Part shown: in pieces, positions 32,950-48,438 of the stretch
Numbering within the stretch: position 1 is the stretch's first letter
Layout: each line of letters opens with the position of its first letter
Assembly: GCF_000420805.1 (NCBI RefSeq)
Contig: NZ_ATVQ01000002.1
Coordinates: 186,001-250,000, forward strand
Direction of reading: 5' to 3'
DNA: 64,000 bases
Origin: Yaniella halotolerans DSM 15476
GTDB lineage: Bacteria; Actinomycetota; Actinomycetes; Actinomycetales; Micrococcaceae
Made by a program: the position numbers and the translations under genes
The notes under the pieces: model-generated
The model's input: the letters and a program-made list of their open reading frames with translations, nothing else
The model's database searches: none
What the model was told of the DNA's origin: nothing

Positions 32950-33357
32950 TTAGGCGTTTTTACCTCGGCGGCTCACCAGTGTAGAAATGCTGCGTCGACC
33001 TATGAGGAGGACACCCAATACTCCAGCGGTGACAAGAACGAACGCGAACTCAGACGAGTCTCGGAACAGTATTGCCCGCAGGATCGGTCCAAGAATCACT
33101 GTGATAATCCATAAGGCAATTCCGGCAGGAAAAACATTATGGATGAGCCTCCCCGGTTTTATTGCAACAGATAAAAGGAGATACGGCAGCATAAACGGCA
33201 ACGCTACACGGGCAATATTGAGAAAACCCAGGTCACCATCATGGGACGAAACACCTATTATGGCAAAAATAATAATAAGGACCGCATCGATGCCGAGCAT
33301 CATGCTTACGGTGGACTTCGAAGCAACCGGGGGAGAGGATTGTGGGGTCGTGGCCAT
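32950..33357 (-). CDS. DUF3054 small membrane protein
   Basis: A 135-residue protein with about four hydrophobic segments (about 22-40, 47-66, 75-94 and 103-121). The IDAVLIIIFAIIGVSSHDGD start and the GRLIHNVFPAGIALW segment fit DUF3054, an uncharacterised actinobacterial and haloarchaeal family. It follows the RAM-domain gene divergently from the next gene. Confidence 0.78.
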   Translation of the reverse strand: MATTPQSSPPVASKSTVSMMLGIDAVLIIIFAIIGVSSHDGDLGFLNIARVALPFMLPYLLLSVAIKPGRLIHNVFPAGIALWIITVILGPILRAILFRDSSEFAFVLVTAGVLGVLLIGRRSISTLVSRRGKNA

Positions 33358-33423: not shown

Positions 33424-34098
33424 ATGATACAAGGACGTAAGGTTGTTGACATGTTCCGCGTGACACTAACTGTGATGAAAAATATTTCCCAGGGCGATGC
33501 AGCTCAGATAATAGAGCAGCTCACAGATTCTTTGACCGTCCAACCGGAGACTGGGGGAGGACCGGTGGCGAGTTTTCAGAAGGTTGGTCAGCGCCAAGTT
33601 CAGGGCTGGCTCAGGTCCGCCGATGAGGTGGTTGGTTTTATACTTTCTGCGGCAAGATCGGGGTCATGGGGTGTGAATTTAACGGCCCTTCTCGACAAGG
33701 ATCAGGTCCATGAGTTTGACTGGTCTCATGGCGAATCAGGCGATTTAATGGGGAAGCAGGTTCAGGAACTCGAGTCACTTGATGCGACAAGAGCGCCCGG
33801 GGGAGTGCAGGTGATGATGGCACAAGGCAATTCCCTTGTAGGAGCGGGCAGTGCTCCTGCTTTAGGTTTGATAGAAGCGGGAATGCAGCTTTTGTGCTCG
33901 ATTGAGCGTCGTCGATCCGTTGAAGGGCAAGAAGCTGGCCTCATGATCAATGCTGGCTCATCCCAGAGGGCCGCGGCTGAGCATCTCAGCGTATCTCAGC
34001 AGGCTGTGTCTTCTCGTCTGCAGGCAGGATATTGGTATGAATCTCGTAGAGTTGCATACTGGCTGGCGCAACAGCTGTCTGAGCTTATGCAATCCTGA
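33424..34098 (+). CDS. HTH-containing protein, SatD-like (tentative)
   Basis: A 224-residue protein. The N-terminal half (RVTLTVMKNISQGDAAQIIEQL and later QVQGWLRSADEVVGFILSAA) resembles the SatD/MarR-like cytoplasmic proteins of Micrococcales. Near residues 180-200, SSQRAAAEHLSVSQQAVSSR looks like a helix-turn-helix. It may be a regulator, but no partner or target is visible; it stands alone 230 bases left of the dif-like site. The start could be the ATG at 33424 or the later MFRVTLT. Confidence 0.6.
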   Translation: MIQGRKVVDMFRVTLTVMKNISQGDAAQIIEQLTDSLTVQPETGGGPVASFQKVGQRQVQGWLRSADEVVGFILSAARSGSWGVNLTALLDKDQVHEFDWSHGESGDLMGKQVQELESLDATRAPGGVQVMMAQGNSLVGAGSAPALGLIEAGMQLLCSIERRRSVEGQEAGLMINAGSSQRAAAEHLSVSQQAVSSRLQAGYWYESRRVAYWLAQQLSELMQS

Positions 34099-34329
34099 TT
34101 CCATCGAGGGCAGTAGAAGTGCCGTCGTAAGTGGGCGAGCGATCCTGGATGCTCCTAAGCCAAGGACCAGGATTAATGGGTGTTGAAGTAAAATCGTGCG
34201 TTCCGATGTTGCCTCATGTTCACGGGTTGGGTCGTGAAGCCAGCTTTGCTGGGGATGAGTGAACCAAAAAGCATGCAATCAATCAACATGCCTTCCGGAA
34301 AATCCAGAAGGGGTAGCCTAAAACAGTCA

Positions 34330-34357
34330 ACTTTACATAATGTAGATTATCGGCGTT
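34330..34357 (-). other. dif: Candidate chromosomal dif site (XerC/XerD recombination)
   Basis: On the minus strand: left arm AACGCCGATAA, six-base centre TCTACA, right arm TTATGTAAAGT. The 11-6-11 layout is that of dif. The right arm matches the Bacillus subtilis XerD-side arm (TTATGTAAACT, as recalled) at 10 of 11 bases, and the inner CATAA/TTATG faces match E. coli dif. It lies in a gene-poor 285-base spacer where the dominant gene orientation of the window switches. Call rests on pattern and context. Confidence 0.7.
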
Positions 34358-34383
34358 TTAGACAGTTCGGAATTCTTCGTTAA

Positions 34384-35716: not shown

Positions 35717-36844
35717 GTGGAGATTTTTCTAATTATCCTCTTCGTTGTGTTGGCTATCTTCGTGGTAGCCATCTTGGCGAAGTCATTCAAAATTGTGCCG
35801 CAGGGTCACTGTGGAATTATCCAACGACTTGGGAAATATCAGCGAACTCAAATGGCGGGGCTTACCATGATGGTGCCGTTTGTTGATGAAATGCTCCCGC
35901 TGATCGACATGCGTGAACAGGTGGTTACGTTTCCGCCGCAACCAGTCATTACCGAAGACAACCTCGTGGTGTCGATCGATACGGTGGTCTATTTTCAAAT
36001 CAACGACCCTACAGCGGCGACCTATGGAATCGCTAACTATATTGCAGCCGTGGAAAACTTGACCACCACAACTATTCGTAACGTGGTTGGTTTTATGAAC
36101 CTTGAAGAGACACTTACTTCGCGCGACGCTATCAATACACAGCTACGTGGGGTTCTCGACGAAGCCACATCAAAATGGGGTCTTCGTGTCTCCCGTGTTG
36201 AGATTAAAGCAATCGATCCCCCACGAACCATTCAGGATTCTATGGAAAAGCAGATGCGGGCTGAGCGTGATCGACGCGCTGCGATTTTGACCGCTGAAGG
36301 TCAGAAACAGTCGGAAATTTTAACCGCTGAAGGTCAACGTCAGTCAGCTATTCTCGAGGCTGAGGGTGACGCTCAGGCGGCGATTCTGCGCGCGAACGCT
36401 GAAGCAGAGGCCATTGTGACAGTCTTCGAAGCTATCCACGAGGGTAAGCCAAATGCTGATTTGTTGGCCTATCAGTACCTTCAGGTACTCCCCCAAATCG
36501 CAGAATCTGATTCGTCTAAGATGTGGATTATCCCTTCAGAAGTTACCGATGCACTGAACCGTTTTAGTGGCACATACGGTCCAGAGGCTGGACCGAGTGG
36601 TTCGACTTCGCCGGGCGGCGGCTCAGGTGATTCTGGACCATCGTCGGACGCACCGACTCCCCCGCCAGCACCAAAAAGTCGACGAGCAAAGCGTCCAACA
36701 ACTGCAGCAGAGATTGCTGACGTTGCGCCGAAGGCTCCGAAATTAGAAGATACTTCTCTGGAAGACGCGTTGGCGGAACCTGAAATTGAAGAAGATATCT
36801 TTCGGGATGCACCAAACAAAGGAAACGCAGGGGAACAAAAATAG
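35717..36844 (+). CDS. SPFH/Band 7 domain protein (stomatin-like)
   Basis: A 375-residue stomatin-family protein. An N-terminal membrane helix (1-18) is followed by the SPFH domain (about 22-185) and a coiled-coil region containing two near-copies of ILTAEGQKQSEILTAEGQRQ. A Gly/Ser/Pro-rich linker (about 290-320) leads to a charged C-terminus. Paired with the upstream nfeD-like gene, the standard arrangement, and probably a membrane scaffold. Start is GTG at 35717. Confidence 0.95.
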   Translation: MEIFLIILFVVLAIFVVAILAKSFKIVPQGHCGIIQRLGKYQRTQMAGLTMMVPFVDEMLPLIDMREQVVTFPPQPVITEDNLVVSIDTVVYFQINDPTAATYGIANYIAAVENLTTTTIRNVVGFMNLEETLTSRDAINTQLRGVLDEATSKWGLRVSRVEIKAIDPPRTIQDSMEKQMRAERDRRAAILTAEGQKQSEILTAEGQRQSAILEAEGDAQAAILRANAEAEAIVTVFEAIHEGKPNADLLAYQYLQVLPQIAESDSSKMWIIPSEVTDALNRFSGTYGPEAGPSGSTSPGGGSGDSGPSSDAPTPPPAPKSRRAKRPTTAAEIADVAPKAPKLEDTSLEDALAEPEIEEDIFRDAPNKGNAGEQK

Positions 36845-38160: not shown

Positions 38161-39156
38161 TTAGACCATCTGACCGTTGCGGATGGAGAACTGGAATCGG
38201 GGTGGCTCGTCGGTCGAAGACAAAATTGGCAGTAGCGCTGTGCCTGCTCGCTTGTCTGTCGACCAGTGTGCAGCCCTCACATCAGGTGCCTGAACTCCAA
38301 GTTGATCTGCCTGCCAGACGTTCAAATTTGCGGGTGCCCCTACAGCAATCTGTCCAGCTGCCATATTTGCTTGTGCAATGCGGTTGGGCAGGACTCGTAC
38401 AGCATCTCGAGACACGGTGTTAAATGCGGCGCGGGTAGATATTCGCTCGTCTGTATCTTCATTTTCAATCAAGGCCGTCACGAGCTCCCACATTGAACCG
38501 GACCACTCCCCCGTGCCCAAGGCAACATGGACGCCCGCTGAAATAAGGGACGCAGCAGGTGCGAGGATCTGCGGTGTGGATCCTACGTGTGCGGGAACTA
38601 TGGTGATGGAAGCATGCAGTGTCACGAGCTTGCTGATCTGCTCCGGACTCATTGTGTGATTCGCTAGAATCCGATGTCGACTGCGCATAAGGGCAGCGTT
38701 GTTTTGTTGTGACAGAGCTTCCAGCACGTAGTCGAGATGATCTGAACTGTCGGATTGGATCATCAATTGTGTAGGTGGTTTGATGCTTCCCATGACCTCG
38801 GGCAACTGATCAAGCTGTGCTGAAGCAATAAATTGGCCGTCAGCATCACTAGGATCAGCATTAAGTGATGCATAATAAACGCGATTGTCACCGGGAATCA
38901 TCGAACTGAACATGCTTCGCGTATCACCGGGTTTAATGTCAGTTTTCGAGAAACCATCGATAAAGGCTGGGGTTACCAGGGTTCCGCGCAGGTCCTTCGT
39001 ATGTACCGGACCCGTGACAGTAGCTGCCACAAGCCGCTCCCCTGCTTCATCTGAGCCTAACCACGCCACGACGCCATTGTCGGCATTGAGGGCATTGGCA
39101 TAAGGCTCTGAGATGGAATGGATGTAGCCGTTGGTTAACAGCAGGCTGGTAGTCAC
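38161..39156 (-). CDS. Amidohydrolase-like protein, metal ligands apparently lost
   Basis: A 331-residue protein related to the amidohydrolase superfamily by its N-terminal beta domain (LLLTNGYIHSISEPYANALN, GVVAWLGSDEAGE, RGTLVTPAFIDGF) and C-terminal return (AAGQIAVGAPANLNVWQADQ). The canonical HxH after the first strand is replaced by FSKT, and the usual GSD/GTD metal Asp region reads GTGEWSGSMWEL. It is also shorter than the roughly 500-residue YtcJ-like members. It overlaps the helicase gene by four bases (ATGA), so it is translated with it. Probably a pseudo-enzyme or an altered function. Confidence 0.7.
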   Translation of the reverse strand: MTTSLLLTNGYIHSISEPYANALNADNGVVAWLGSDEAGERLVAATVTGPVHTKDLRGTLVTPAFIDGFSKTDIKPGDTRSMFSSMIPGDNRVYYASLNADPSDADGQFIASAQLDQLPEVMGSIKPPTQLMIQSDSSDHLDYVLEALSQQNNAALMRSRHRILANHTMSPEQISKLVTLHASITIVPAHVGSTPQILAPAASLISAGVHVALGTGEWSGSMWELVTALIENEDTDERISTRAAFNTVSRDAVRVLPNRIAQANMAAGQIAVGAPANLNVWQADQLGVQAPDVRAAHWSTDKRAGTALLPILSSTDEPPRFQFSIRNGQMV

Positions 39157-48231: not shown

Positions 48232-48438
48232 TTACTGGCCGCCTTTTTGCACAAAGCCCTGGACAAATTCTTCTGCGTTGACTTCGAGCACGCCGTCGAT
48301 CTCGTCTAGTAACGAGTCCAGATCAGCGCTCTGAGCACTGGCTGATCCCGGAGAAGGTGTGCCTTCAGGCAGAGGGTCCGGAATATGCTGGTCTTCTTCG
48401 TGGCGCTGGTGTGGGGGACGTTGTTGGTCTTGTGCCAT
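48232..48438 (-). CDS. pup: Prokaryotic ubiquitin-like protein Pup
   Basis: Small disordered protein modifier of 68 residues. The C-terminus ends QGFVQKGGQ; the terminal Gln must be deamidated by Dop before ligation. The Arc-binding coiled-coil helix DLDSLLDEIDGVLEVNAEEF is intact. Gly, Ser and Gln are common in the first half, as usual. Encoded between dop and pafA. Confidence 0.97.
   Translation of the reverse strand: MAQDQQRPPHQRHEEDQHIPDPLPEGTPSPGSASAQSADLDSLLDEIDGVLEVNAEEFVQGFVQKGGQ

Follow-up and report, generated by a model that had tools for sequence, protein, structure and literature searches.

The window analyzed here is a stretch of 64,000 nucleotides that corresponds to positions 186001–250000 of contig C2, and the genome-level computations covered all six contigs of the assembly (2,775,456 bases; 2.775 Mb). 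On the minus strand of the window, a dif-like site of 28 bases is situated in a gene-free interval between two ORFs:

33424..34098, plus strand: flanking ORF, 224 aa, beside the site in 8/8 genus members
34099..34383, no strand: gene-free interval of exactly 285 bases, between the flanking ORFs, with the site inside
34330..34357, minus strand: dif site, 28 bp, AACGCCGATAA-TCTACA-TTATGTAAAGT; unique, conserved and matching Frankia dif
34347..34357, minus strand: predicted XerC-binding arm AACGCCGATAA, the core of which, GCCGATAA, is invariant among the relatives found
34341..34346, minus strand: 6-bp centre TCTACA, flanked by the predicted cleavage points
34330..34340, minus strand: predicted XerD-binding arm TTATGTAAAGT, conserved in relatives; TTATGTNAAGT occurs once in the genome
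34384..34986, minus strand: flanking ORF, 200 aa, with a maltokinase N-terminal cap domain, beside the site in 8/8 genus members

The original prediction described an 11-6-11 layout around TCTACA on the minus strand, and the letters are exactly as claimed (34357–34347, 34346–34341, and 34340–34330); the gap of 285 bases without a gene (34099–34383) is likewise confirmed. The inner ends had been given as CATAA and TTATG. TTATG stands as the inner end of the right arm, of which CATAA is the plus-strand reading, but the left arm, read on the minus strand, has GATAA at its inner end. The arms are predicted to bind XerC and XerD by analogy with the published dif layout. The 224-aa ORF is without a match in Pfam or NCBIfam. 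The gap holds no Rfam family and no promoter-like site, and its minus strand contains one terminator-like hairpin at 34311–34291 (1 found vs 0.3 expected). A 7-bp inverted repeat (CTAAAAC/GTTTTAG; 34318–34324 and 34355–34361) that flanks the site is absent in other genus members and is thus probably incidental.

As a yardstick we used the published dif of Frankia, suggested to be CACGCCGATAATGCACATTATGTCAAGT in Frankia alni (Kono et al., PMC3025954), in place of the comparisons with B. subtilis and E. coli. A scan of both strands of the whole genome (5.5 million positions) gave 24/28 matching bases here and at most 19/28 elsewhere, which bears out the expectation of a single best dif-profile match in the genome. 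The exact 28-mer occurs once, and no other place lies within three mismatches of it. At the same tolerance, 29 of 59 relatives carry exactly one copy and none (0/59) carries two, and a reversed control pattern returned zero matches in the same search. About half of the 59 relatives yielded no site within three mismatches; their dif sites, if present, are more divergent. At least 119 contigs contain the core pattern, and almost all of these are actinobacterial (Micrococcales, Nocardia, Frankia, and others). Across 21 sites of other genera, mean agreement is 92% over the 28 columns vs 42–43% in the 60-base flanks, figures that are somewhat biased by selection because the sites were collected by similarity; the second and third bases of the TCTACA centre differ between genera. 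Seven of the eight Enteractinococcus genomes share an identical 28-mer and the eighth differs by one change, while the flanking gap has diverged. In other genera, dif is found near trpD, RbpA, or dolichol-phosphate mannosyltransferase-like genes (11–15 instances per gene, of at least 119 loci), which suggests an old, conserved terminus neighborhood.

These observations bear on two other explanations of the site. A chance resemblance within the gene-free gap has the shortness of the site, and nothing more, to recommend it; the distance between 24/28 and the next best 19/28, the recurrence of the site at the same place in congeners whose flanks diverge, and the coincidence of an octamer switch with the site (see below) leave this explanation with a negligible probability. 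Mobile elements that depend on Xer recombination are known to carry dif-like sites (PMC5357621, PMC3025954), and the site might accordingly belong to such an element, as an IMEX attachment site or a plasmid dif module, rather than to the host chromosome. This is extremely improbable, given that the genome holds one site with no second copy or remnant, that the neighboring genes, ordinary chromosomal genes among them, are the same in 8/8 genus members, and that octamer polarity and gene direction across the chromosome center on the site.

The proteins expected to act at a dif site are encoded in the genome. XerD (L154:10808–11767) scores above the NCBIfam equivalog cut-off, and a second recombinase (L292:5796–6995) has XerC as its best match, at 309.9 bits, below the cut-off of 335.2. 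The ORF of the latter carries ∼90 extra N-terminal residues ahead of the recombinase domain, probably as the result of a mis-assigned start. Only these two close Xer-type proteins were found in the genome. FtsK is a protein of 979 aa (L181:6036–8975, minus strand) with 4TM, alpha, motor, and gamma domains, and the matches to PF09397, PF01580, and PF17854 all fall in this one protein. The unloading of SMC condensin by XerD is a second role that PMC11898615 cites as reported for B. subtilis, and the presence of a predicted XerD arm would also suit a site that serves mainly to unload SMC at the terminus, with recombination being secondary. However, it is the whole two-arm 11-6-11 site that is conserved, beyond the XerD arm, and exact XerD arms do not cluster near the terminus (TTATGTNAAGT is single in the genome). 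We therefore regard SMC unloading as the main function of the site as very unlikely, although the two roles are compatible and not exclusive.

The strongest evidence for dif is the polarity of short G-rich octamers. These were discovered by their leading-strand bias on contig C1, reckoned solely from the origin on that contig (dnaA at C1:1132436; parS sites at C1:1138801–1139783), and were then read on C2. The octamer CGGGGGAG is distributed 79:4 on C1, and on C2 its counts are 18:0 up to the site and 0:16 beyond it. It was chosen without reference to C2 or to dif and was later found to be a published architecture-imparting octamer; (T/C)GGGGGAG and G(A/T/C)GGGGGA are the octamers of this type that locate dif in Corynebacterium (PMC2830990, PMC3219685). 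With the full set (YGGGGGAG and GHGGGGGA), the counts on C2 are 56:3 before the site and 2:54 after it. Octamers close to the site, with their putative orienting role, are the following:

33328..33335, plus strand: orienting octamer CGGGGGAG, towards dif
33552..33559, plus strand: orienting octamer TGGGGGAG, towards dif
33798..33805, plus strand: orienting octamer CGGGGGAG, the last before dif on this side
36217..36224, minus strand: orienting octamer GTGGGGGA, the first past dif, of opposite polarity
36488..36495, minus strand: orienting octamer TGGGGGAG, towards dif
36657..36665, minus strand: overlapping octamers CGGGGGAG and GCGGGGGA, towards dif
38506..38513, minus strand: orienting octamer CGGGGGAG, towards dif

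In the window, the switch in polarity is thus bracketed by 33798 (+) and 36217 (−), and dif falls within this interval. Genome-wide, the full set comprises 515 sites (239+:21− on the right arm and 12+:243− on the left), and the switch occupies a single interval of 2.4 kb that contains dif. Inside lagging-strand genes the octamers still favor the leading strand (122:7), and the bias is therefore not a by-product of gene direction. Their density reaches 1.0 per kb within 5 kb of dif vs 0.15–0.24 further out on the contig. The same coincidence is seen elsewhere: CGGGGGAG switches between 1520531 (+) and 1523378 (−) in the complete congener G005 (2.8 kb; dif at 1522828) and between 1893224 (+) and 1899771 (−) in G019, a complete genome from another genus (6.5 kb; dif at 1898519). 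Past dif, C2 has only two octamers of the wrong polarity, at window position 48411 (+) and at C2 285841 (+), which might mark recently acquired DNA. The orienting motif of the E. coli type, GGGNAGGG, has a weak bias in this genome (91:37), and that of the B. subtilis type, GAGAAGGG, has none (8:10).

Gene direction and chromosome geometry point to the same place. The original prediction placed a reversal of gene direction near the site, and such a reversal exists: the change-point on C2 falls at 26.2–26.8 kb of the window, with near-equal support as far as 37.3 kb, and beats 1000/1000 run-permutations. The contigs were ordered by mapping protein markers from the contig ends onto two congeners: G005, which is complete, and G006, which is in six contigs. 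Both agree on five joins that close the circle (C1 end to C4 end, C4 start to C3 start, C3 end to C5 start, C5 end to C2 end, and C2 start to C1 start), the join of C5 to C2 being based on distances, as the markers closest to the C2 end did not map there. Overlaps between contig ends were uninformative for ordering, as they consisted of shared repeats only. All octamer polarities are consistent with this synteny-based order. On the ordered genome, the origin and dif are separated by 1,419,540 bases, 51.2% of the genome; the octamers converge at 1,417,667–1,420,086, and the peak for gene direction is at 1,426,222, less than 7 kb from dif. In seven relatives, complete or almost so, dnaA and dif are 0.42–0.56 of the contig apart (G005, 0.513; G009, 0.557; G019, 0.420; G028, 0.537; G031, 0.490; G033, 0.480; G046, 0.538). 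Relative to complete G005, the marker order of C1 and C4 differs, apparently by one large origin-spanning inversion with breakpoints at 16–302 kb of C1 and 113–190 kb of C4; the strand of dnaA does not fit a single inversion, and the origin has thus probably undergone another, small inversion.

The identification of the site as dif is supported by its unique match, its conservation, the genes for XerC, XerD, and FtsK, the convergence of octamers and gene direction, and its position opposite the origin. We are nearly certain that it is the chromosomal dif, the site of chromosome dimer resolution, and the terminus-side landmark of the chromosome is thereby fixed to 28 bases. Protein binding, the reading of the octamers by FtsK, and recombination at the site are expected from established dif/Xer biology, and the KOPS system is the model for the second of these. 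By this analogy, an odd number of crossovers would fuse sister chromosomes into a dimer, and the septal pump FtsK would load on the G-rich polar octamers and be steered along both arms to dif. FtsK would there pair the two dif copies and activate XerD on the TTATGTAAAGT arm; exchange of strands around the 6-base centre by XerD and then by XerC would convert the dimer into two monomers. As an instance of dif, the site is of a known kind and predictable by existing methods, and its added interest is the separation of dif from the turn in GC skew.

The original prediction expected dif at the skew extreme, a check named beforehand, and on this point it was contradicted. Proximity to the skew turn is common among dif sites but is no strict part of their definition. 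Cumulative GC skew is lowest near the origin, as usual, and peaks at 1,205,083. The peak precedes dif by about 214 kb, or 7.7% of the genome, a distance that depends on the synteny-based contig order. A step model of skew at fourfold sites, corrected for gene strand, places the turn between 1.18 and 1.30 Mb (95% bootstrap limits); dif lies outside these limits, and the turn is in no case less than 50 kb from it. Over C2:220–435 kb (from 34.3 kb of the window onward), the skew retains the other arm's sign, whereas octamers and gene direction switch at dif. Placing all contigs in the same orientation and defining the arms by octamer polarity gave arms of 42:58 with a midpoint at the skew turn. 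This result is invalid because it takes contig orientation as known; synteny shows C2 and C4 to be reversed, the arms become 51:49, and the coincidence is gone. Separately, G+C falls locally (to 0.51) at 600–650 kb and 1050–1125 kb of C1, and the negative GC skew there is unusually strong.

The absence of a skew turn does not refute dif, since the octamers switch at the site, within 2.4 kb here and within 2.8 and 6.5 kb in two relatives. In this genome the octamers narrow the location of dif to 2.4 kb, where a search guided by GC skew alone would land 214 kb away. The mismatch does make it less certain that dif is the normal meeting point of the replication forks, as the original prediction implied. 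Recent rearrangement alone is not an easy explanation, because an inversion or a move would shift polarity and skew together, and here the two are discordant. Tentatively, and as one possibility among others, fork fusion may be uncoupled from dif, its usual site being ∼214 kb earlier on the right arm and recorded by mutational skew, while octamers, gene direction, and geometry mark dif. The right-arm fork would in that case be the slower one, with forks usually fusing ∼200 kb ahead of dif and the octamers held at dif by selection. A regional mutation bias is another possible cause, and the skew in this genome is weak, at a few percent. Hendrickson and Lawrence reportedly proposed that termination occurs at dif. 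Kono et al. hold that termination need not be at dif (PMC3025954, PMC3317982) and describe GC-skew outliers of up to 3% of genome size in Proteobacteria and Firmicutes (PMC3025954). Were the uncoupling true, signals for segregation would be selected at dif despite termination elsewhere, which bears on the dispute over termination at dif. The mismatch offers a natural test case for whether termination and dimer resolution are tied to one place.

The site is close to several described systems. It shares with the Frankia alni dif its length of 28 bp, the 11-6-11 layout, the core CGCCGATAAT..ACATTATGT, its single copy, and its position at the terminus, and differs from it by four substitutions: the first base, two central bases, and one in the XerD arm (A for C). 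As in the dif regions of C. aurimucosum and C. variabile (PMC2830990, PMC3219685), the same polar octamers switch strand at a dif opposite the origin. In C. aurimucosum, however, GC skew also marked the dif region at the expected position, whereas the turn here is 214 kb off. Finally, the strand-biased octamers that run from origin to dif and are locally dense beside it resemble the KOPS/AIMS systems (PMC5357621, PMC5993296), with recognition by FtsK being putative in the present case.
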